64,000 bases of DNA, taken from NCBI GenBank assembly GCA_018816095.1, contig JAHIWP010000045.1:20987-84986 (forward strand), written 5' to 3'. The stretch comes from Gammaproteobacteria bacterium (lineage in GTDB: Bacteria > Pseudomonadota > Gammaproteobacteria > Pseudomonadales > Pseudomonadaceae). The notes below the pieces were generated by a model that saw nothing but the letters and a program-made list of their open reading frames with translations, had not been told where the DNA came from and did not search any database. This document shows positions 53,129-64,000 of this stretch, piece by piece; position 1 is the first letter of the stretch, and each line of letters opens with the position of its first letter. Position numbers and translations under genes: made by a program.

Positions 53129-55354
53129 ATGAAAGCGCTCGGCAAAATCATCGGCCTGTTTTTTCTAGGGCTCTTGCTGATCATCGTGGCGCTGGGCTTC
53201 GCCCTCACCCACCTGTTCGATCCCAACGATTACAAAGACGAAATCCGCCAACTGGCCCGCGACAAGGCCAATCTGGAGCTAACCCTCAAGGGCGATATCG
53301 GCTGGAGCCTGTTCCCCTGGCTCGGCCTGGAGCTGACCGACGCCAGCCTCGCCAGCCTCAGCACCCCAGAGCAACCCTTTGCCGACCTGCGCCTGCTTGG
53401 CCTGTCGGTGCGCGTACTGCCGCTGCTGCGCAAAGAAGTGCAGATGAGCGATATCCGCATCGACGGCCTCAACCTCAATCTACAGCGCGACGAAAAAGGC
53501 CACAGCAACTGGGAAGATGTCGGCAAACCGAAAACCGCCGCAACCACACCTGACGCCGCGACGGGCGACAGCGCACCACCTGCAAGCGCAACACCTGAAG
53601 CAGAAAATAACAGCCAGCCACTAAAACTGGATATCGACAGCCTGATCGTCAACAGCGCCCGCATCGACTACCGCGACGCACAGAAGGGCCAACAATTCAG
53701 CGCCGAAAGCATCCAGCTGACCACCGGGGCCATCCGTGAGGGCGCTGGCATACCCGTCAAGCTCAGCGCCTTCTTTGGCCTCAACAAGCCGGTATTGCGC
53801 GCCCGCAGTGAACTGCAGGGCGAACTGCGTTTCGACCGGGCGCTCAAGCGCTACCAGCTGGAAGATGCCAAGTTCTCCGGCGAAGTCTCCGGCGAACCCT
53901 TTGACGGTCAAACGCTGACCTACTCCGCCCAAGGCCAACTGCTGGTTGACCTGGCCGCTCAGGTCGCCGAATGGAACGGCCTGAAACTGTCCGCCAATCA
54001 GCTGCGCGCCCTCGGCGAGCTAAAAGTGCGCGACCTCGACACCCAGCCAAAACTCAGCGGCGGGCTGTCCATCGCCCCGCTCAACCTGCGCGAATTCCTC
54101 ACCACCATCGGCCAGAAACTGCCGCCGATGAACGATGAGAAAACCCTCAGCCAATTCGAACTGGTCACCCGCCTCAGCGGCACCGCCAACAGCCTGACCC
54201 TCGAAGACCTCAAGCTAACCCTCGACGACAGCCATTTCAGCGGCCAGCTGGCGATTGCCGACTTCGCCAAGCAAGCCCTGCGCATGCAACTCAAAGGCGA
54301 CCAACTGAACCTCGACCGCTACCTGCCAGCACCGGCCAAAGACGCCAAAGACGCCGGCGCTGCGCGCCAGGCCGAAGTTAAAGCCAGTGTTGCCAGTGCC
54401 GGTGAAAGCGGCAGCACACCACTGCCCGACGCGCCGACGCAGCATGCCTGGAGCAGCAGCGAAATCCTGCCGATCGCCGCCTTGCGCAAGCTCGATGCAC
54501 AGCTCGATCTCGACCTAGACCAGTTCACCGTGCAGCAACAAGCCATCAGCAACTTCAGCGCCAAAGCGCAGGCCAAAGCCGGCTTGCTGACCCTTGAAAA
54601 CGCACGCGGCAGCATTGGTAACGGTAGTTTCGACGCCAAAGCCAGCATCGACGCAAGACCTGCCACGCCGCTGCTCAGTGTGCAAAAGAACCTGCGCGGC
54701 ATTCAGATCGAACCCTTCCTGAAAAAGCCCGACCAGCCTTCCCCCGTCAAAGGCCTGCTCGACCTCAACGCCACCCTCAGCACCAGCGGCAACAGCCAGC
54801 GCGCCTGGGTGGACGGACTCAACGGCGACGCCAGCTTCCTGCTCAATGACGGCGTGCTGGTCGACGCCAATCTGGAACAGCAGCTGTGCCGCGGCATCGC
54901 CACCCTCAACCGTAAGGCCCTAAGCAGTGACCCGCGCGGCAAAGACACGCCCTTCGAAACCCTGCAAGGCAGCCTGACCGTGCGTAATGGCGTGGCCCAC
55001 AACCCAGACCTCAAGGCGCGCATCCCAGGCTTGGCGGTCAGCGGTAATGGTGATGTGGACCTGCGCATCCTCGGCCTCGATTACCGCGTTGGCATCACCA
55101 TTACCGGTGATCAGCGCGAGATGCCCGATCCGGCCTGCCAGGTCAACGAACGCTATGTCGGCATCGAATGGCCCGTGCGCTGCCGTGGCCCGTTGGAAAT
55201 GGGCGGCAAGGCCTGTCGCCTGGATCAGGACGGCCTGGGTAAGGTCGCCGCGAAACTGGCCGGCAACAAGCTCAACGAGAAGATCGAAGAAAAACTCGGT
55301 GACAAGGTCAGCCCCGAGCTGAAAGATGCACTCAAGGGCCTGTTCAACCGATGA
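53129..55354 (+). CDS. AsmA-family envelope protein
   Basis: 741-residue protein with an N-terminal membrane helix (about 5-28, [25 protein letters not shown]) and a long periplasmic AsmA-like beta-groove: [54 protein letters not shown] is the family core, and the C-terminal [28 protein letters not shown] and [14 protein letters not shown] end it. An Ala/Pro/Gln-rich linker (about 125-165) separates the parts. AsmA/YhdP/TamB proteins move phospholipids to the outer membrane. Start ATG 53129 behind AAGG; the frame runs to 53012. Overlaps mutY by four bases. Confidence 0.92.
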
Positions 55355-56424
55355 CCCCTGCACAATTCTCTACCGCTGTACTCGACTGGTATGACAGCCA
55401 CGGACGCAAGGACCTGCCCTGGCAACAGGGCATCACACCGTATCGCGTGTGGGTCTCGGAGATCATGCTGCAGCAGACCCAGGTCAGCACCGTACTCGGC
55501 TACTTCGACCGTTTTATGGCCGCATTACCGACGATGAGCGACCTGGCCGCCGCGCCGGAAGACGAAGTGCTGCACCTGTGGACCGGCCTCGGTTATTACA
55601 CCCGCGCGCGCAACCTGCAAAAGACCGCACAGATCGTTGTGCGCGAACATGCCGGCGAATTCCCACGCGATGTCGAGCAGCTCACCGAACTTCCTGGCAT
55701 CGGCCGCTCCACCGCCGGCGCCATTGCCAGCCTCAGCATGGGCCTGCGTGCACCGATACTCGACGGCAACGTCAAGCGCGTACTGGCGCGCTACGTGGCT
55801 CAGGAAGGCTATCCAGGCGAACCGAAAGTAGCCAAGCAGCTATGGGATGTGGCCGAACGTTTCACCCCGCAGGCGCGGGTGAACCACTACACCCAGGCAA
55901 TGATGGATCTGGGCGCCACCCTCTGCACGCGCAGCAAACCCAGCTGCCTGCTTTGCCCGCTAAAAAGCGGCTGCCAGGCGCACCTGCTCGGCCTGGAGAT
56001 TCGTTACCCCATCCCTAAGCCGCGCAAAACGCGGCCGCAGAGGCGCACGCTGATGCCGATCCTCGCCAACCACCAAGGCGAGGTCTTGCTCTACCGCCGC
56101 CCTTCCAGCGGCCTTTGGGGCGGCCTATGGAGCCTGCCAGAGCTCGACAACCTGCAAAGCCTGGACGACCTGGCAAGCCGTCACGGCTTGCAGCTGGGCA
56201 CGCGCCAGATGCAAGCCGAACTGACCCACACCTTCAGCCACTTCCAGCTGGCCATCGAACCCTGGCTGATCCAAGTCAACGCCGCGCCGACCGCCGTGGC
56301 CGAGGCCGATTGGCTCTGGTATAACCTCGCCACCCCGCCGCGCCTGGGCCTTGCCGCCCCGGTGAAGAAACTGCTGAAACGCGCGGCCGATGCACTCGCA
56401 GCAAATACTGGAGAGACACCATGA
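55351..56424 (+). CDS. mutY: Adenine DNA glycosylase MutY
   Basis: 357-residue base-excision repair enzyme removing A mispaired with 8-oxoG. HhH-GPD core: [11 protein letters not shown]-type segment [14 protein letters not shown] holds the catalytic Glu, [32 protein letters not shown] the helix-hairpin-helix and catalytic Asp, and [17 protein letters not shown] the CX6CX2CX5C 4Fe-4S site. The C-terminal NUDIX-like domain (about 225-345) recognises 8-oxoG. ATGA overlap with the AsmA gene and with yggX. Confidence 0.97.
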
Positions 56425-56693
56425 CCCGCACCGTACAGTGCCGCAAACACAAGCAAGAACTCCCCGGCCTGGAGCGCCCGCCATACCCCGGCGCCAAAGG
56501 TGAAGACATCTTCAACAACGTCTCCAAGCAAGCCTGGGAAGAATGGCAAAAACACCAGACCCTGCTGATCAACGAACGTCGCCTGAACATGATGAACGCC
56601 GAAGACCGCAAGTTCCTCCAAACCGAGATGGATAAATTCCTCTCCGGCGAGGAGTACGCCCAGGCCGAAGGCTACGTGCCGCCGAGCGCATAA
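56421..56693 (+). CDS. yggX: Oxidative-damage protection / Fe(II) trafficking protein YggX
   Basis: 90-residue protein starting [57 protein letters not shown], matching the YggX family throughout. It protects Fe-S clusters from oxidation and is thought to move Fe(II). The single Cys7 is conserved. ATG overlaps the mutY stop by four bases, a pairing that joins two oxidative-damage functions, as in Escherichia coli. Confidence 0.95.
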
Positions 56694-56937
56694 CCCGGTA
56701 TACCGTGGGCGGCACGTTAGCGTGCGACCTCATCCGCAATATGCGCGACTAAAAGCCCCGCCCACGACCCACACCCTGCAACCGCAGGGTCGATGCCGCT
56801 TCACCCTCCCAGCAAACCGCACATCCCCGCCTACAAACATCCTCCCGGACTGCCTCCAAACCACCCCGCGTCACCCATCATTTCCCACCATCCGAACCTA
56901 ACCGCCCGTATTAATTAAATATTTTTTAAACTCACGC

Positions 56938-56966
56938 TTGACACACACCCTTCAAATCCGTCTAAT
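56938..56966 (+). promoter_or_regulatory. Sigma70 promoter of tRNA-Phe with UP-like AT tract
   Basis: TTGACA 56938-56943, 17-base spacer, TCTAAT 56961-56966. An AT-rich stretch at 56910-56930 lies just upstream, as in strong stable-RNA promoters. Start would be near 56973. Confidence 0.85.
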
Positions 56967-56976
56967 ACGCCCCGTT

Positions 56977-57052
56977 GCCCGGGTAGCTCAGTCGGTAGAG
57001 CAGGGGATTGAAAATCCCCGTGTCGGCGGTTCGATTCCGTCCCCGGGCACCA
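56977..57052 (+). tRNA. tRNA-Phe (GAA)
   Basis: 76 bases with encoded CCA. GCCCGGG acceptor pairs with CCCGGGC; D arm GCTC/GAGC, anticodon arm with GAA in the loop (GGGATTGAAAATCCCC, five paired bases each side), T arm with GGTTCGATTCC. Cloverleaf is complete. A good promoter and a terminator flank it, so it is monocistronic. Confidence 0.97.
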
Positions 57053-57064
57053 AAATACCGAGAA

Positions 57065-57098
57065 ACCCCAAGCGAAGTTAAATTCCTTGGGGTTTTTT
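57065..57098 (+). terminator. Intrinsic terminator of tRNA-Phe
   Basis: ACCCCAAG 57065-57072 pairs with CTTGGGGT 57086-57093, followed by T through 57098. It begins 13 bases beyond the tRNA 3' end. Confidence 0.92.
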
Positions 57099-57300
57099 AT
57101 TGCCTGCGATTTTTCACGACCTGCTCAGCGCCACAATTGTGTGCGAGCGACAGCCAACTGCAGCAAGGCGACAGGCTGACCAGCTAAGCGCCCCGCGGCA
57201 GGTAAACGGCTTGGCGGTCAGCGAAACGCTATGCTAGCTTGGCGCCTCGCCAGGAACGCTACGAAAGGCCTGAGCGCCCCGAATAACAAGAGGACACCCC

Positions 57301-58074
57301 ATGGCCGAGGCCACGCCTGCGCTGGAAATTCGCGATCTGCATAAACGCTACGGCGACCTTGAGGTGCTCAAGGGCATTTCTCTCACTGCCCGCGACGGCG
57401 ATGTGATTTCCATCCTCGGCTCCTCAGGCTCCGGTAAGTCGACCTTTCTGCGCTGCATCAACCTGCTGGAAAACCCACACAAGGGGCAGATCATTCTTGC
57501 CGGCGAAGAGCTCAAGCTTAAAGTGGCGAAGAACGGCGACCTTATTGCCTCCGACAACAAGCAGATCAATCGCCTGCGCAGCGAAATCGGCTTTGTCTTC
57601 CAGAATTTCAATCTGTGGCCGCACATGAGCGTGCTCGATAACATCATCGAGGCACCGCGCCGCGTATTGGGGCAGAGCAAAGCTGAGGCCATTGAAGTGG
57701 CCGAAGCGCTGCTGGCCAAGGTCGGGATTGCCGACAAGCGCCACGTTTACCCGAATCAACTGTCTGGCGGCCAGCAACAGCGGGCGGCGATTGCCCGCAC
57801 CCTGGCCATGCAGCCGAAAGTCATCCTGTTCGATGAGCCCACTTCGGCTCTTGACCCGGAAATGGTACAAGAAGTGCTTAATGTGATCCGCGCACTCGCC
57901 GAGGAAGGCCGCACCATGCTGCTGGTGACTCACGAGATGGGCTTTGCCCGCCAAGTATCCAGCGAAGTGGTGTTCCTGCATCAAGGCCTGGTTGAAGAAC
58001 AGGGCTCCCCGGAGCAGGTGTTCGACAATCCGAACTCGGCGCGCTGCAAACAATTCATGTCCAGCAATCACTAA
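57301..58074 (+). CDS. Polar amino-acid ABC transporter ATP-binding protein (HisP/AotP type)
   Basis: 257-residue ATPase of a basic/polar amino-acid importer. Walker A ILGSSGSGKSTFLR, Q-loop VFQNFNLWPHMSV, signature LSGGQQQRAAIARTLA, Walker B VILFDEPTSALDPEMV and H-loop VTHEM are complete. The inserted segment KVAKNGDLIASDNKQINRLRSE is typical of HisP/AotP. First gene of a four-gene transporter; a binding protein and two permeases follow on the same strand. Substrate probably Arg/Lys/His/ornithine, by family only. Confidence 0.94.
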   Translation: MAEATPALEIRDLHKRYGDLEVLKGISLTARDGDVISILGSSGSGKSTFLRCINLLENPHKGQIILAGEELKLKVAKNGDLIASDNKQINRLRSEIGFVFQNFNLWPHMSVLDNIIEAPRRVLGQSKAEAIEVAEALLAKVGIADKRHVYPNQLSGGQQQRAAIARTLAMQPKVILFDEPTSALDPEMVQEVLNVIRALAEEGRTMLLVTHEMGFARQVSSEVVFLHQGLVEEQGSPEQVFDNPNSARCKQFMSSNH

Positions 58075-58093
58075 ACACACGGAGCAACTACGC

Positions 58094-58846
58094 ATGCAGA
58101 ACTACAAGAAAATCCTGCTGGCCGCTGCCGCCACCCTGGCTTTCGGCACCAGCGCCGTCGCTGCTGACAAACTGAAACTCGGCACCGAAGGCGCCTACCC
58201 ACCGTTCAACCTGATTGACGCCAGCGGCCAGGTAGGCGGCTTTGACGTAGAAATCGGCCAAGCCCTGTGCGCCAAGATGAAGACTGAGTGCGAAGTGGTC
58301 ACCTCCGACTGGGACGGCATTATTCCAGCCCTGAACGCGAAGAAGTTCGACTTCCTGATCGCCTCCATGTCGATCACTGACGAGCGCAAAGTAGCCGTTG
58401 ACTTCACCGACCCGTACTACACCAACAAGCTGCAGTTCATCGCCCCTAAAGGCGGCGACTTCAAAACCGACAAAGCCAGCCTGAAAAACAAAGTGATCGG
58501 CGCACAGCGCGCCACCATCGCCGGCACCTGGCTGGAAGACAACCTCGATGGCGTGGTCGATATCAAGCTGTACGACACCCAGGAAAACGCCTACCTCGAC
58601 CTGTCTTCGGGCCGCCTCGACGGCGTCCTGGCTGACACCTTCGTCAACTGGGAATGGCTGAAGAGCGATGCCGGCAAAGACTTCGAGTTCAAGGGCGAGC
58701 CAGTATTCGACAACGACAAGATCGGCATCGCCGTGCGCAAGGGCGACGCCCTGCGCGAAAAGCTGAACGCTGCCCTTGCCGAGATCGTGGCTGACGGCAC
58801 CTACAAGAAAATCAACGACAAGTACTTCCCGTTCAGCATCTACTAA
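58094..58846 (+). CDS. Periplasmic polar amino-acid binding protein
   Basis: 250-residue type 3 solute-binding protein: signal peptide to about residue 23 (ILLAAAATLAFGTSAVAA), then LGTEGAYPPFNLIDASGQVGGFDVEIGQALC, CEVVTSDWDGIIPALNAKKFDFLIASMSITDERKVAVDFTDPYY, which is the HisJ/ArgT/AotJ-like signature. Start ATG 58094 with GGAG nine bases upstream (frame extends into the ATPase gene). It delivers ligand to the permease pair encoded next. Confidence 0.94.
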   Translation: MQNYKKILLAAAATLAFGTSAVAADKLKLGTEGAYPPFNLIDASGQVGGFDVEIGQALCAKMKTECEVVTSDWDGIIPALNAKKFDFLIASMSITDERKVAVDFTDPYYTNKLQFIAPKGGDFKTDKASLKNKVIGAQRATIAGTWLEDNLDGVVDIKLYDTQENAYLDLSSGRLDGVLADTFVNWEWLKSDAGKDFEFKGEPVFDNDKIGIAVRKGDALREKLNAALAEIVADGTYKKINDKYFPFSIY

Positions 58847-58897
58847 GCTGCCGGCACTGCGTCGCCCGCCCGGGCGGCGCAGGCTTCTGAGCCTCCT

Positions 58898-59593
58898 ATG
58901 AATTTCGATCTTTACGGATTCGGCCCAGCCCTGGCTGCCGGCACCCTGATGACTATCAAGCTGGCGCTCAGCGCGCTGTGCCTGGGTCTGGTGCTCGGTT
59001 TGCTCGGCGCCCTGGCCAAGACTTCCCCGTACAAGCCGCTGCAATGGCTTGGCGGCACTTACTCAACCATCGTGCGCGGGATTCCCGAGCTGCTTTGGGT
59101 GTTGCTGATCTATTTCGGCACCGTGCAGCTGATGCGCAACCTGGCGGACCTGCTCGGCATCGAAAGCCTTGAGCTGAACGCCTTTGCTGCCGGCACTATT
59201 GCCCTCGGCATTTGCTTCGGCGCGTACGCCACCGAGGTGTTTCGTGGCGCAATCCTGGCCATCCCCAAAGGCCACCGCGAAGCCGGCCAAGCGCTGGGCA
59301 TGTCCAAGCCGCGGATTTTCTGGCGACTGATCCTGCCGCAGATGTGGCGCATCGCCCTACCCGGTCTCGGCAACCTGTTTATGATTTTGATGAAGGACAC
59401 CGCGCTGGTGTCAGTGATCGGCCTGGAAGAAATCATGCGCCGCTCACAAATCGCCGTAACCGCCAGCAAGGAACCCTTCACCTTTTATATGGTGGCGGCC
59501 TTTATCTACCTGGGCCTGACGGTGCTGGCGATGATTGGCATGCACTTCCTGGAAAAACGCTCCAGCCGTGGCTTTGTCAGGAGCGCGTCATGA
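58898..59593 (+). CDS. Amino-acid ABC transporter permease, HisQ type
   Basis: 231-residue inner-membrane permease of the HisMQ family with about five membrane helices. The family EAA loop reads EAGQALGMSKPRIFWRLILPQMWR. LMTIKLALSALCLGLVLGLLGAL and IVRGIPELLWVLLIYFGTVQL are typical. Overlaps the second permease gene in ATGA at 59590. It forms a heterodimer with the next permease. Confidence 0.93.
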   Translation: MNFDLYGFGPALAAGTLMTIKLALSALCLGLVLGLLGALAKTSPYKPLQWLGGTYSTIVRGIPELLWVLLIYFGTVQLMRNLADLLGIESLELNAFAAGTIALGICFGAYATEVFRGAILAIPKGHREAGQALGMSKPRIFWRLILPQMWRIALPGLGNLFMILMKDTALVSVIGLEEIMRRSQIAVTASKEPFTFYMVAAFIYLGLTVLAMIGMHFLEKRSSRGFVRSAS

Positions 59594-60360
59594 AAAAGAC
59601 CTCTGAAATAGCCGCCTGGTCGATTGCCGTAGCGCTGATTGCCTACGCACTCTGGGGCGGCCTAACCGCCCTTAACTGGGACGTGATCATCAAATGGCTG
59701 CCGCGCCTCTCTGAAGGCGCCCTACTGACCCTGGAGCTGGTGGCCATCGCTGTTCTCGCCGGGTTGATCCTGGCACTGCCCATGGGCATCGCACGCGCCT
59801 CACGGCACTGGTATGTGCGCGCCCTGCCCTACGGCTACATCTTCTTCTTCCGCGGCACGCCACTGCTGGTGCAGCTGTTTCTGGTGTATTACGGCCTGGC
59901 ACAGTTCGATGCGGTGCGCGAAGGCCCGCTCTGGCCCTATCTGCGCTCCCCATACTGGTGCGCTGTACTGACCATGACCATGCACACCGCGGCCTATATC
60001 GCCGAGATTCTGCGCGGCGCGATTCAAGCCGTCCCGCCAGGTGAGATCGAAGCCGCCCGCGCTTTGGGCATGTCGCGGGCCAAAACCATGTTCTATATCG
60101 TCCTGCCACGGGCGGCGCGTATCGGTCTGCCGGCTTACAGCAACGAAGTGATCCTGATGCTCAAAGCCAGCGCCCTAGCCAGCACCGTAACCCTGCTGGA
60201 ACTGACCGGCATGGCGCGCACCATCATCGCCCGCACCTACCTGCCCGTGGAGATCTTCTTCGCCGCCGGGATGTTCTACCTGTTGATCGCCTTCATCCTG
60301 GTCCGGGGCTTTAAGCTGCTGGAGCGCTGGCTGCGCGTCGACGCCTGCCAGGGCCGCTGA
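59590..60360 (+). CDS. Amino-acid ABC transporter permease, HisM type
   Basis: 256-residue partner permease. EAARALGMSRAKTMFYIVLPRAAR is the EAA loop, and YIFFFRGTPLLVQLFLVYYGLAQF, with the conserved RGTPLLVQ, lies near residue 80. Start ATG 59590 (MKKTSEIAAWSIAV) overlaps the HisQ-type stop; the frame is open to 59212. End of the transporter operon; the next gene starts 41 bases on. Confidence 0.93.
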   Translation: MKKTSEIAAWSIAVALIAYALWGGLTALNWDVIIKWLPRLSEGALLTLELVAIAVLAGLILALPMGIARASRHWYVRALPYGYIFFFRGTPLLVQLFLVYYGLAQFDAVREGPLWPYLRSPYWCAVLTMTMHTAAYIAEILRGAIQAVPPGEIEAARALGMSRAKTMFYIVLPRAARIGLPAYSNEVILMLKASALASTVTLLELTGMARTIIARTYLPVEIFFAAGMFYLLIAFILVRGFKLLERWLRVDACQGR

Positions 60361-60401
60361 TTGCCTGGGGGCCAGCGCCCTCAGGCAACACGCCACGTCA
60401 T

Positions 60402-61676
60402 ATGCCAACGACCACGCCCGCCCTGCCACTCGAAAACGCTGACCTCCTGCAGCGGTTTAACGCACTCGATCGCTTCCTCAGCGAACATCAAGCACTGTGG
60501 CGCCCCCGACCCTTTGTGCATTATCCGGCAATCCCATGGGAAGCCGAGCACCCGCAGCTGGCGGCTTGGCTAAGGACACAGAGCCTAGAGCACGCAGAAG
60601 CGGCACATAACCAGCCGCACCTGCTACAAGCACCCGCACCCTTTGCGCAACTAGCGGCACAGGCTCACCAGCTGAGCCAAGTGGGCGAATTAGCACCGCT
60701 ACCAACGCCCGCTTTGCCCGCACGCTTCAGCGCAGACGTACCCGGCCGGAAGTGGCAGCAAATCGACGCCTTCGCCCACAGCCTGAACTTCACCGATAAG
60801 CCTCTGCACTGGCTGGACTGGTGCGCTGGCAAGGGCCACCTCGGCCGGCGACTGGCGCATAACGGTGCAGCGCTGACCTGCCTGGAATACAACCCAGAAC
60901 TGATCAAGAGCGGGCAACAACTCAGCAAAAAGCTCGGCATCGAGGCCGCGCATATTCAGCAAGATGTGCTGGCTGATACTGCGGCAGCGCAGCTACGCGC
61001 TCACCACACCCCCGTGGCACTGCATGCCTGTGGCGACCTGCACACGCGCCTGCTGCAACTGGCCAGCCAAGTCGGCTGCCAGCAACTAGCCGTGGCGCCC
61101 TGCTGCTACAACCGCATCAGCACGGCGCTCTATCAACCACTGTCGACAAGCGCCCAAGCCTCAGCACTGCAACTGTCCATCGACGATCTAGGTCTGCCGC
61201 TCAGCGAAACCATTACCGCCGGCGCACGGGTACGCCGCCAGCGCGATCAATCCATGGCCTGGCGCCTGGCCTTCGACCTGCTGCAGCGCCAGTTACGCGG
61301 CATTGACGCTTACCTACCGATCCCGTCCCTGCCACCCGCCTGGCTGGACAAGCCCTTTGCGGACTACTGCCAAGACCTTGCTGCACTCAAGCAACTGCCC
61401 GCACCAACCACAGAGGATTGGCAACAGCTTGAACACAGGGGCTGGAAACGTCTGGCAGAAGTGCGCAACCTGGAGCTGCTGCGCGGCCTTTTCCGCCGCC
61501 CACTGGAAGTCTGGCTGCTACTCGACCGCGCCCTATTCCTGCAAGAGCAGGGTTACAGCGTGCGCCTTGGCACCTTCTGCGCCCCCCAACAGAGCCCGCG
61601 CAACCTGCTGCTGCTTGCAGAACGCCAGCCCAAGTTGCCCACAACATCTGTGGATAACTCTGTTGACAGATTCTGA
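60402..61676 (+). CDS. SAM-dependent methyltransferase (GSTCD-like, Methyltransf_32 type)
   Basis: 424-residue cytoplasmic protein. The central domain has the SAM motif WLDWCAGKGHLGRRLAHNGAALTCLEYNPELI near residue 140, then VALHACGDLHTRLLQLASQVGCQQLAVAPCCYNRIS, where HACGD and APCCY are hallmarks of this family. The N-terminal 120 residues and C-terminal 130 are family-specific and helical. Substrate unknown. No strong ribosome binding site is evident before the ATG. Confidence 0.85.
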   Translation: MPTTTPALPLENADLLQRFNALDRFLSEHQALWRPRPFVHYPAIPWEAEHPQLAAWLRTQSLEHAEAAHNQPHLLQAPAPFAQLAAQAHQLSQVGELAPLPTPALPARFSADVPGRKWQQIDAFAHSLNFTDKPLHWLDWCAGKGHLGRRLAHNGAALTCLEYNPELIKSGQQLSKKLGIEAAHIQQDVLADTAAAQLRAHHTPVALHACGDLHTRLLQLASQVGCQQLAVAPCCYNRISTALYQPLSTSAQASALQLSIDDLGLPLSETITAGARVRRQRDQSMAWRLAFDLLQRQLRGIDAYLPIPSLPPAWLDKPFADYCQDLAALKQLPAPTTEDWQQLEHRGWKRLAEVRNLELLRGLFRRPLEVWLLLDRALFLQEQGYSVRLGTFCAPQQSPRNLLLLAERQPKLPTTSVDNSVDRF

Positions 61677-61882
61677 GCAAACCACGCAAACGCGCACCAC
61701 GAACTGTCAGCGCTGAACTGTACATTTTTTAACCTGCAAATATTTCTTGTAAAAACATGCACTTATCAAATACCGAGAGGTAGCTCACAAAGACCACGTA
61801 CGAACGTGCCGAAAACACCTCACATGTGCATAAGCATTTCGCTGCTGATAACTGCCCCCGCATAAAACCCTGCTCGGGCCGC

Positions 61883-61910
61883 TTTACACGCGCAAATGAA
61901 TCGATATAAT
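61883..61910 (+). promoter_or_regulatory. Sigma70 promoter of tRNA-Thr
   Basis: TTTACA 61883-61888, 16-base spacer, perfect TATAAT 61905-61910. Start near 61917, just before the tRNA. Confidence 0.82.
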
Positions 61911-61923
61911 GCGCCCCACAAAT

Positions 61924-61999
<76 letters not shown>

Positions 62000-62007
62000 T
62001 ACAAAAC

Positions 62008-62038
62008 AAAGGGTTACGTGAAAGCGTAGCCCTTTTTT
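62008..62038 (+). terminator. Intrinsic terminator of tRNA-Thr
   Basis: GGGTTACG 62011-62018 pairs with CGTAGCCC 62025-62032 (one G-U), with A-run before and six T after (62033-62038). Confidence 0.85.
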
Positions 62039-62360
62039 GTACCCTAAATTTGGCTTGGGGTAGGATTGGGGTAGGGTTTTGACACCCATCGCTATGCTGG
62101 CTAGAAAAAATACGCGCCAGCCTCAATACCACTCGTCGGGAATAACTGCTGGTACGCCTCACCCGGCAGCAGAGTTCATAGCCATTCCAAAACGGCCAAA
62201 CCCATTTTTACCCATCTTGAGGGCGATTCATGATGAAGCCATTTCTTATCAAGATGGCGTAATGTGGGCACTTGCGCAGCCTTAGAGAGCTGAATAGTGT
62301 GAATGGGCGGGTCATCTGACCTGACTCCAGGATCACTAGCACCATAAAGCAACTTGTTAT
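62039..62360. other. Non-coding boundary region beyond tRNA-Thr
   Basis: 322 bases with no convincing gene. A 68-codon frame (62079-62285) has a TTG or ATG start, no ribosome binding site and no family I recognise. Contains a tandem 11-base repeat (TTGGGGTAGGA then TTGGGGTAGGG, 62055-62076), a kind of sequence often seen near integrase genes or attachment sites. No integrase is present in the window. Confidence 0.5.
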
Positions 62361-62436
62361 GGTGGCTGTATGCGGGGCGCTTCGGCGCGCCGAGTTCCTT
62401 GAGCCTCGGTCTACCAACCCGCATACAGCCGCCACC
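62361..62436 (+). ncRNA. Structured RNA resembling C4 antisense RNA
   Basis: The outer stem pairs GGTGGC 62361-62366 with GCCACC 62431-62436, then TGTATGCGGG 62367-62376 with CCCGCATACA 62418-62427, leaving GCC 62428-62430 bulged. Two hairpins lie inside: GGCGC with GCGC(G)CC around TTCG at about 62376-62391, and CCGAG 62390-62394 with CTCGG 62405-62409. CTACCAA 62411-62417 stays unpaired. The three-way junction and the two segments complementary to downstream bases resemble phage P1/P7 C4 RNA, which represses an antirepressor. Family membership is from memory and needs a covariance search. Confidence 0.5.
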
Positions 62437-62488
62437 CTCTCGTTTGGTAGCGAGTGACGGCGGCCTCTAAAACTCAAGAGGTCACCCT
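62437..62488 (+). promoter_or_regulatory. Leader with C4-type target segments and hidden ribosome binding site
   Basis: CTCG 62439-62442 and CGAG 62451-62454 form a hairpin whose loop shows TTGGTAG (62444-62450), exact complement of CTACCAA 62411-62417. GGCGGC 62459-62464 is complementary to GCCGCC 62428-62433. CCTCT 62464-62468 pairs with AGAGG 62477-62481, the Shine-Dalgarno of the gene at 62489, so translation could be switched by RNA pairing. Confidence 0.5.
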
Positions 62489-62776
62489 ATGCACCCAAGC
62501 AACTCCTCCCCAGGCTTTACCCCACTACACTCCAGCGAGCACAACTGCCTGCTCGGCTTTCGCAGCGATGCCAGGGCAACCGAGCTCTATGACGAGGCGA
62601 TGCAACGCCAGCATGCAGCTCTCAGCTTACTCTGCGTACTCGGCGGCACACCCCATTTGAATGAGCTTTCCGACGAACCCCTGAGCGGGTGCATCCAGGC
62701 GATCAGATTACTGTGCAGTGATGCAGCCGGGCTGTATTCCGCAGCCTGGGAGCGCGTGCAGCAAGAAGCGGCCTGA
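62489..62776 (+). CDS. Small hypothetical island protein
   Basis: 95 residues, helical by composition: RSDARATELYDEAMQRQHAALSLLCVLGG, then LSDEPLSGCIQAIRLLCSDAAGLYSAAWERVQQEAA. Length and pattern recall the short DUF3077-type proteins of pseudomonad islands, but I cannot confirm that. Start ATG 62489 has AGAGG seven bases upstream, inside a hairpin. It follows a C4-like RNA, so it may be the target of riboregulation. No other clue to function. Confidence 0.6.
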   Translation: MHPSNSSPGFTPLHSSEHNCLLGFRSDARATELYDEAMQRQHAALSLLCVLGGTPHLNELSDEPLSGCIQAIRLLCSDAAGLYSAAWERVQQEAA

Positions 62777-62802
62777 CTTGAATTAGAAGAAGGAGGGGCG
62801 GA

Positions 62803-63063
62803 TCACTCGCCCGCCTTCTTTGAAGACAGCTCAGATTCGTAACGCTGCACAAACTCGACAAGGTTAAGCCCAAGCACATGGCAAATATCGCGCAGCTGCA
62901 CTAGATCGAGCCGACGAAGGCCACGCTCAATGTCGCTGGTAAAGGATTGTGGACGGCCCAGCGCTTCGGCGAACTCGGCCTGAGTCATCCCTGAGTCGAC
63001 CCGGCATTGCTTGATCAAGCGAAGCAGCACCAAATTCTCATCTCGATAAATCGACTTTTCCAC
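62803..63063 (-). CDS. XRE-family helix-turn-helix repressor
   Basis: 86 residues of Cro/C1-type DNA-binding domain: ALRLIKQC-like start LVLLRLIKQCRVDSGMTQAEFAEALGRPQSFTSDIERGLRRLDLVQLRDICHVLGLNL, then an acidic-basic tail. GTG start at 63063 (next in-frame Met is internal) with only a weak GGAA upstream. It is divergent from the metallophosphoesterase; tandem palindromic sequences in the gap are likely its operators. Confidence 0.85.
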   Translation of the reverse strand: MEKSIYRDENLVLLRLIKQCRVDSGMTQAEFAEALGRPQSFTSDIERGLRRLDLVQLRDICHVLGLNLVEFVQRYESELSSKKAGE

Positions 63064-63081
63064 AGAGACGCATTCCAGCTG

Positions 63082-63132
63082 TTGACAAAGCCAGAATGTA
63101 TATCTAAATTACAGATATCTGAATTACAGGTA
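63082..63132 (+). promoter_or_regulatory. Promoter with two tandem 15-bp operator units
   Basis: TTGACA 63082-63087, 17 bases, TAAATT 63105-63110. Overlapping the -10: units TCTAAATTACAGATA (63103-63117) and TCTGAATTACAGGTA (63118-63132), 13 of 15 bases alike; unit 1 with its flanks is an inverted repeat (ATATCT...AGATAT). Position fits repression by the XRE protein. Confidence 0.65.
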
Positions 63133-63139
63133 TACAGAT

Positions 63140-63760
63140 ATGAACGTCGTGCACATCTCCACAATCATCCCTCTCGATCCAGATCGATCCGCACTTCTCG
63201 ATGCCAAAAACCGCGTTTTGCTTTTAACCCTTGAGCGCTTGGTAAGTCGATTCGACATCCTCGCTGGCGATATCGATGTAAAGGCTCGAGGAATTAGCTG
63301 GGCCATGCGGGCGTTTCCCTGCCCCGTTCTTTATGTACCCGGAAATCATGAGTACTTCGGCGGACACCTCTTCGGAACACTGGCGAAAATGCGTGTTTCC
63401 TGTGCAGCGTCTCATGTTCAAGTACTGGATCGAGATGTAGTTGAAATAGGTGACGTTCGATTTCTAGGCGCGACGGCGTGGACTGATTTTTCCGCGACAG
63501 GAAATACGCCGTTGGCGTCGATCACAGCACAGAGTTCAATGAATGATTACCGCCTGATTCGTACTGGTGAGAACTACCGACGCATCAAGCCTGGCGACCT
63601 TGCCGCCGAAGCACGTAAGACACGTAATTGGTTTCTGAGCAAACTAGCCGAACCGTTTTCAGGCCAAACCATAGTGATAACGCACCACGCACCGCTTATG
63701 CGCTCACTGGTAGAAAACCCACATTCTGGGGGGCATCTTGATGCGGCTTATGCAAATGAG
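63140..63760 (+). pseudogene. Calcineurin-like metallophosphoesterase, truncated by IS21 element
   Basis: The native part ends near 63760, where IS21-type sequence begins; the frame runs on to a stop at 63823 with 21 IS-derived residues. Present motifs: LAGDID (GD motif), VPGNHEYFGG (GNHE motif), and VITHHAP. The C-terminal GHxH motif is lost, and no DxH motif exists near the N-terminus (reads HISTIIPLD). Related proteins have SDLHLEF there. Divergent from an XRE repressor and next to a palindromic operator. Lower GC than the core. Likely inactive; the second IS end is outside the window. Confidence 0.8.
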
Positions 63761-63765
63761 TGCGG

Positions 63766-63880
63766 ATTCCACGGCCATCCGGCCACCCATTCCATGAGCA
63801 TCTGGCCACCGATTCCACGGTGATCCGGCCACCCGTTCCACGCGCATCCGGCCACTGATTCCACGGCCATCTGGCCACCC
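63766..63880 (+). repeat. Five tandem 23-bp terminal repeats of the IS21 element
   Basis: Units at 63766-63788, 63789-63811, 63812-63834, 63835-63857 and 63858-63880, all beginning (A/G)TTCCA and ending GGCCAC plus two bases. No spacers intervene, and the period is constant at 23. They are probable IstA-binding sites. Confidence 0.9.
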
Positions 63881-63949
63881 GCCCAGGTAGGCAGCCACGC
63901 AGGATTTATTCACTACCATCGACCTCTTTTTCGAAGCACAGAGGTCGTC

Positions 63950-64000
63950 GTGGAGCGTTTATCCATGCGTAAGATTCGCGAAGTACTACGTCTCAAGTTC
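63950..64000 (+). CDS. istA: IS21-family transposase IstA, N-terminus (partial)
   Basis: 17 codons to the window edge: VERLSMRKIREVLRLKF, matching the start of IS21 IstA transposases (a helix-turn-helix of the type MRKIREVLRLK). GTG at 63950 has GAGG five bases upstream; ATG at 63965 is an alternative. The DDE domain would lie outside the window. Confidence 0.82.
   Translation, partial: MERLSMRKIREVLRLKF

Follow-up and report, generated by a model that had tools for sequence, protein, structure and literature searches.

The window analysed here (the whole stretch of 64,000 nucleotides, from contig JAHIWP010000045.1 of a gammaproteobacterium of the family Pseudomonadaceae) carries, at 62489..62776, a small gene that we call ORF95, and the structured leader of this gene raises the question of what kind of RNA it encodes and how that RNA acts on the gene. 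A preliminary description, made from the sequence, had likened the leader to the C4 RNA of phages and allowed for either a cis-acting switch or a processed antisense RNA. Our analysis, which computed the gene order, the family of the RNA, its pairs with the target and the compensatory change in them, indicates that the region 62272-62776 is very probably a self-contained post-transcriptional lock on ORF95, of the type formed by c4 and icd in phage P1, situated on a probable integrative element.

The C4 antisense RNA and its target sites

The elements of the RNA and of its targets are as follows:

62355..62439, + strand: C4 antisense RNA, match to the covariance model RF01695
62360-62376/62418-62434, + strand: stem P1 of C4, from the fold; its 3' arm ends at 62434
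62377-62388, + strand: stem P2 of C4, from the fold
62389-62393/62406-62410, + strand: stem P3 of C4, from the fold
62398..62403, + strand: b' (CTTGAG), in the P3 loop, pairing with 62473-62478
62411..62417, + strand: a' (CTACCAA), free at the junction, pairing with 62444-62450
62444..62450, + strand: a2 target (TTGGTAG), in the loop of the hairpin 62438-62454
62459..62464, + strand: GGCGGC, partner of 62428-62433 (C4 stem, 3' arm) in a third complementarity
62464..62481, + strand: Shine-Dalgarno hairpin CCTCTAAAACTCAAGAGG, holding the Shine-Dalgarno sequence AGAGG and the b2 target (CTCAAG, 62473-62478)
62489..62776, + strand: ORF95, the target gene, encoding a 95-aa two-helix protein of no named family

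The Rfam model of C4 antisense RNA matches 62355-62439 on the + strand over its full length (model positions 1-87) at 81.4 bits (gathering score 45, E 2.9e-15). This comparison was one of the checks named in the preliminary description, and it bears out the phage C4 layout recognised there: the element is a genuine C4 antisense RNA, of a kind already known. The whole window yields three Rfam matches at gathering score, the C4 and two tRNAs; a riboswitch reading was rejected, as only tRNAs match besides C4. The folding energy of 62355-62500 is -72.6 kcal/mol against a mean of -49.3 for shuffled sequences (z -6.3; reached in 0 of 200 shuffles). The three-way junction, the unpaired a' and its exact complement in a hairpin loop 26 nt further on are all in place as first described, and so is the hairpin that encloses the Shine-Dalgarno sequence. 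The mature RNA is presumed, by analogy with P1 C4, to span 62361-62436 with GGTGG and CCACC as its ends, and GGT at its presumed start offers the context for RNase P processing at GGW, which would give a product of about 77 nt.

The second contact was identified differently at the outset. Complementarity between GCCGCC and GGCGGC had been proposed for this role; both segments lie where they were placed, but the second contact of C4 is made by the P3 loop, where the initial reading had missed CTTGAG facing CTCAAG in overlap with the Shine-Dalgarno sequence. GCCGCC was thus rejected as the b' arm. The pair is instead a conserved third complementarity joining the base of the C4 stem to the spacer between a2 and b2: among 109 C4 loci the cognate energy is -12.9 kcal/mol, compared with -10.9 (sd 0.2) for permuted and -8.4 for shuffled partners, and a counterpart, CCTGC/GCAGG, was seen by eye at the corresponding place in P1. 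It could let the C4 stem swap partners.

Pairing is exact over 7 nt between a' and a2 and over 6 nt between b' and b2. Among 20,000 dinucleotide shuffles of 62440-62488, 45 contained a 7-nt complement of a', and five had in addition some 6-nt match to the 12 nt at 62396-62407; the 6-nt match by itself is weak, since 2,579 of the shuffles give one. By duplex energy only 3 of 104 non-cognate targets suit the a' of the window as well as its own. Combined a2 and b2 sites elsewhere in the genome of the window (87% complete) stand at chance level (four places including the locus itself, five for a reversed control), and a wider C4 regulon in this genome was rejected on the ground that such sites are no commoner than in the control.

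Compensatory change and cognate pairing

We aligned nine leaders of the tRNA-Thr type (the window, L033, L034, L035, L040, L042, L139, L141 and L143), the C4 RNAs of L139, L141 and L143 being read from the sequence rather than through Rfam. The alignment omits L036-L039, which have other forms of P3 and a', L041 and L043, whose leaders are identical to those of L040 and L042, the records behind L034 and L035 (L140 and L142), and L148. Standard pairs occupy all 342 of 342 cells, compared with 29-45% of cells in slid structures. None of 500 shuffles attained the observed covariation score or as many cells with changes on both sides; double changes affect only 3 of 38 pairs in this small and close set, and that count of pairs was reached in 254 of the 500. 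The covariation check put forward in the preliminary description has therefore revealed compensatory change. One pair of a' is U-A in six leaders and A-U in three, the window among the latter, and one pair of b' is A-U in five and U-A in four, again with the window in the second group. Each switch occurred together with its target and all four combinations of the two are present among the nine leaders; a' and b' have therefore each changed with their own targets, independently of one another.

A broader permutation test gives stronger evidence than the covariation count of the nine leaders. It covered 109 distinct C4 loci, many of them related and with descent uncontrolled. The own downstream target pairs with a' at -9.1 kcal/mol against -6.65 (sd 0.14) for permuted targets, and with b' at -14.1 against -8.9 (sd 0.20), values reached in 0 of 2000 permutations in either case. 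Cognate pairing exceeds the mean of non-cognate pairing in 95 of the 109 loci for a' and in 98 for b'.

ORF95, its proposed regulation and the probable integrative element

The remaining features of the locus flank the C4-ORF95 unit on both sides:

62272..62300, + strand: promoter-like pair TTGCGC / 17 nt / TAGTGT, found by eye; presumed start of the C4-ORF95 transcript
62309..62332, + strand: position of a1/b1, with the hairpin GGGTCATCTGACC (a1 lost) followed by GACTCCAGGA
62796..62812, no strand assigned: terminator-like hairpin between ORF95 and the convergent HTH gene (three overlapping sites on the two strands, 0.9 expected)
62803..63063, - strand: HTH_3/HTH_31 regulator gene (PF13560 39.0 bits, PF01381 36.9 bits)

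The block around 62272-62300 is largely conserved in six aligned leaders, including that of the window, and a consensus promoter scan of 61900-62900 reported no promoter. At the b1 position GACTCCAGGA is a single base off the complement of the b' of homologues. In the window and five homologues of its group a1 is unmatched (-3.3 to -6.2 kcal/mol) and the b1-like stretch is kept; pairing of a' with the upstream 170 nt amounts to -3.3 kcal/mol in the window, against about -6 to -13 outside its group.

The AlphaFold model of ORF95 (pLDDT 88) has two short strands and long helices at residues 30-52 and 62-94. Searches with the protein found nothing above the Pfam cut-off (one family at 14.1 bits, cut-off 26.8), no match at E<=1 in PHROGs and NCBIfam, and none with E<=0.001 by Foldseek of the model against PDB and viral structures; tblastn of phage and plasmid records gave no result, and the best E in a search of PDB sequences was 0.87. 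The preliminary description had placed the gene in an apparent island and had not known it as an antirepressor, and these Pfam, PHROG and NCBIfam searches likewise recognise no antirepressor in it. In IMG/VR a single contig was found, L148, whose leader is that of L034. A profile search (at least 60 aa, at most 900 nt downstream of a C4) assembled a superfamily of 50 open reading frames, some loci being counted twice; of 26 of its members compared with PHROGs, two families matched one each, with a best E of 0.0028 and without result. Homology to DUF3077 was not accepted, either for the superfamily (probability 8%, E 0.0043 by hhalign against DUF3077-like proteins) or through one homologue (13.9 bits, cut-off 21). 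C4 lies upstream in 23 of 29 loci with ORF95 homologues, and the six without it (L051, L052, L053, L056, L059 and L060) are weak matches with E between 9e-6 and 1.1e-4. Sub-threshold matches to the SymR antitoxin RNA (39-58 bits, cut-off 61) were observed on the strand opposite to the gene in L051, L052, L053 and L056.

From this arrangement we infer transcription, processing, repression, action in trans, mobility and a role of ORF95, in the following way. One transcript would carry C4 and then ORF95, and the host RNase P would probably cut it at the GGU at 62361, freeing a C4 RNA of about 76 nt. C4 would stop translation by pairing its a' to the a2 loop and its b' to the ribosome-binding site of ORF95, on the same or on other molecules. 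In P1, Rho-dependent termination follows once translation of icd is blocked. Synthesis of ORF95 would then require C4 to be scarce or mismatched, as on entry of the element into a cell that lacks a fitting C4. It looks monocistronic, since the terminator-like hairpin separates it from the convergent HTH gene, and because that hairpin follows and nothing is evidently coupled to it, ORF95 itself should be the effector; standing in place of Icd (or, in the relatives with a leader, of Ant), it would most likely tip the element from its quiet state.

The element that probably carries the C4-ORF95 pair of the window lies beside tRNA-Thr. C4 starts about 250-360 nt after a tRNA-Thr or tRNA-Met in eight of the ten distinct loci that are closest, counting the window; L035 and L038 have no tRNA in the stretch examined. 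The named relatives belong to Pseudomonas and Stutzerimonas (five loci). The HTH gene stands beside ORF95 in eight of nine homologue loci (L063-L071), being absent from L071 and also from L141. Five of the nine (L064, L065, L068, L069 and L070) have homologues of ORF95, the HTH gene, orf163, P22_AR_N, DUF6957 and an integrase-like gene, the last occurring in six of nine. The P22_AR_N antirepressor homologue (PF10547 48.7 bits, tested in L064) lies a few genes beyond ORF95, past the convergent HTH gene. L063 is without orf163 and the antirepressor and has Vsr, HATPase and DUF4420 genes past the integrase-like gene; L066 ends at a contig end, the gene sets of L067 and L143 are partial, and L071 matched ORF95 alone. 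In L141 (Pseudomonas sp. 8AS) only tRNA-Thr, C4 and ORF95 are present. At 63100-63140, before the HTH gene, a repeated palindrome-like ATATCTAAATTACAGATATCTGAATTACAG was noted by eye, probably the HTH operator. Just past the tRNA-Thr terminator, at 62057-62076, there is a near-tandem repeat, GGGGTAGGATTGGGGTAGGG, present in all six aligned leaders and a possible recombinase arm site.

Three other explanations were weighed against a C4 RNA that is processed and silences ORF95. The first is a leader switch acting only in cis, with the C4 domain remaining part of the ORF95 mRNA, a' and b' pairing intramolecularly and no RNA being set free. In its favour, a' and a2 are just 26 nt apart and would be co-transcribed, and the third complementarity allows a partner swap by the 3' arm of the C4 stem; against it, the hallmarks of processed C4 are kept (the GGTGG start, the CCACC end and the TTATGG context). 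A processed antisense RNA is favoured because the layout matches that of P1 C4, described as a trans-acting repressor of Ant synthesis (PMC8546580). Another paper (PMC5320573) cites RNase P as cutting P1 C4 at the 5' end of the stem, and describes an RNA-seq step at the GGW start in all but two transcripts of the C4-like RNAs of Acinetobacter baumannii. We therefore consider the cis switch improbable. Growth inhibition by ORF95, with C4 as an RNA antitoxin that retains the element in the manner of a type I toxin-antitoxin addiction pair, is suggested by P1 Icd, which is encoded directly after C4 and blocks cell division (PMC8198154, PMC8201110). The C4-ORF95 pair that stands alone at tRNA-Thr in one genome and the pairs that are mostly insulated from each other within each of two genomes tested would suit it too. 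Lack of similarity to Icd, the two-helix model and the absence of a toxin family match for ORF95 in Pfam, PHROGs and NCBIfam (PADLOC was not searched) speak against it, and we hold it to be unlikely. The third is that the locus has decayed and no longer functions in this genome: a1 is lost, the genome holds a single C4, and the region is cut off at the contig end. We consider this highly improbable, because both switches seen among the close homologues are compensatory, with 100% of cells paired, the reading frame is intact and the three nearest relatives have proteins 76-94% identical.

Several observations weigh against the P1-type lock on ORF95 or against parts of it. ORF95 has no similarity to P1 Icd (BLASTP E 1.5). 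The b'/b2 pair of the window is short, and its duplex energy does not stand out, since 88 of 108 non-cognate targets do as well; this contact is accepted because of the compensatory change in homologues. The upstream a1 site of the P1 type is lost in the window, leaving a b1-like remnant only, and the upstream a1/b1 copies of the family are neither needed for nor explained by such a lock. By eye, no copy of the HTH operator-like repeats was seen near the presumed C4 promoter. The contig stops at the right edge of the window, and neither antirepressor nor integrase is visible in this copy. Against PF00589 (cut-off 27.1) the integrase-like gene scores 25.6 bits in L063, 20.6 in L068 and nothing in L064, and no second copy of the tRNA-Thr end was found in the homologue loci examined, which weakens the case for integration at the tRNA. 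For the lone pair of Pseudomonas sp. 8AS, domestication fits as well as immunity. The reading of C4 and its target does not rest on the evidence for integration, and its probability is thus unchanged by the weakness of that evidence.

C4 RNAs across the family and in known systems

To place the locus, genomes of the family and of the class were scanned with stricter filters and at most 10 and at most 15 candidates scored per genome, respectively. Within the family, 286 of 398 genomes contained a C4. The class-wide sample yielded it in 18 of 274 genomes, two of which belong to the family of the window. Fuller counts were made in ten genomes chosen for a high number of C4 RNAs or for close ORF95 homologues; these hold 1 to 24 each and 124 in total (two below the cut-off), with 15-24 in six of the ten. 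Of 57 superfamily members in them, 43 lie at most 700 nt downstream of a C4, a partly circular figure in that the profile was seeded from eight of the ten (G303, G355, G012, G166, G033, G195, G237 and G335). The two seedless genomes gave 8 of 16 members after a C4 (G254) and none (G182). Within G303 (17 C4 RNAs) and within G355 (20 of 21 examined) no two C4 RNAs share an a'/b' pair; 14 of the 17 in G303 and 17 of the 20 in G355 fit their own target strictly better than any other.

The C4 neighbours tested with Pfam include Bro-N antirepressors (L023, L090), DUF3077 (L007), DUF6124 (L024, L101) and a QslA-family protein (L130). In L130:8001-8442 a C4 with fitting a2/b2 lies directly upstream of the QslA-family gene (PF18226, 72.6 bits); the antiactivator of the quorum-sensing regulator LasR belongs to this family. 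Eight C4 RNAs of G355 (L101-L103, L105, L106, L108-L110) each precede a gene whose product starts MFKVTPNPP or MFKPTPNPP; the one tested, from L101, is DUF6124. In G303 the superfamily member is the second gene, overlapping a leader reading frame of 23-32 aa by 4-8 nt, which is the position of Ant in P1. Ten dispersed copies in this genome (L072-L075, L077-L079 and L081-L083, with C4 near 8001) are similar from about -140 to +470-570 of C4. This cassette of about 610 bp consists of a promoter-like stretch, C4, the leader reading frame and a 91-aa reading frame, with little or no similarity outside and no transposase inside, and resembles a small mobile unit. A search for the empty site of one such cassette in 29 genomes, G303 included, found three others that share only part of the left flank and one that shares 29 bases of the right flank.

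Loci of other branches have upstream a1/b1 copies that match their own C4. Among the 14 C4 RNAs of G012 that were tested (of 15), upstream a1/b1 is strictly best in 13 and downstream a2/b2 in two, the reverse of the pattern in the window, and the upstream and downstream target copies are therefore separable. Four C4 RNAs of G012 (L117, L120, L121 and L125) lie just upstream of large vgrG-like genes, with a2/b2 lost and a1/b1 kept; the gene of L120 was called by Pfam (Phage_GPD and Gp5_trimer_C) and the other three by resemblance.

There is about an even chance that C4 in this family has ceased to serve phage immunity alone and is a multiplied regulatory cassette, nearly every copy in the two genomes tested having its own a'/b' code for the neighbouring gene and the ORF95 version being still carried by an integrative element. 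On that reading it would control the small two-helix superfamily and also the Bro-N, DUF3077, DUF6124 and QslA-family genes. Within the literature searched (titles and the beginnings of abstracts, with subscription journals thinly covered) we found no description of neighbour-matched C4 sets in this family, and in the same literature ORF95 as a target and its setting are new, as are, beyond the window, the scale and the insulation of the C4 pairs. C4 control would thus extend from phage immunity operons to a small protein family of chromosomal islands. The two homologous codes CTACCAAC and CTTCCACAC with their matching targets offer a ready test of target choice, the expansion across the family supplies a natural set of mostly mutually insulated antisense RNA-target pairs within single genomes, and the function of several DUF families could be tested through the RNA switch that they share.

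The closest known system is the immI region (c4-icd-ant) of P1 and P7, which shares with the window the Rfam family, the three-helix fold, a' and b', targets a2 and b2 around the ribosome-binding site and a layout as one transcription unit. The P1 record AF234172 is annotated in the order a1, b1, c4 (77 nt), a2, b2, icd and ant1, the last two overlapping by 4 nt, and from C4 through a2 and b2 to the ATG at 62489 the window follows the same order. The gaps between a2 and b2 (22 nt) and between b2 and ATG (10 nt) are equal in both, a2 follows the CCACC end of C4 after 7 nt in the window and after 3 in P1, and the context of the C4 start, TTATGGTGG, is common to the two, together with the GGTGG start and CCACC end. 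Other C4 branches resemble P1 further in having a1/b1 copies and a short leader reading frame whose end runs 4-8 nt into the gene that follows, as with icd and ant1. Some distant branches bear the c4-a1b1 motif RF03163 upstream of C4 (described by Weinberg et al. 2010, PMC2864571), for example L044 with 59.9 bits; in contrast to these, it was undetected in the window (no match at E<=1 in 55001-64000). Unlike P1, a plasmid prophage, the window has its C4 next to a chromosomal tRNA, has lost a1 and has as target a gene unrelated to icd, followed by the terminator-like hairpin and the convergent HTH gene; an icd-like target coupled to an antirepressor, as in P1-type immI, is not found in it, and the P22_AR_N gene of its relatives lies past the convergent HTH gene. 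The other comparable case is that of the "Group 1" C4-like sRNAs of A. baumannii, 21 in one chromosome and likewise with varying a' loops, for which transcripts of incoming phages or other bacterial transcripts are suggested as targets (PMC5320573). Unlike in that proposal, the C4 RNAs described here mostly fit the gene directly downstream, with the exception of genome G012.
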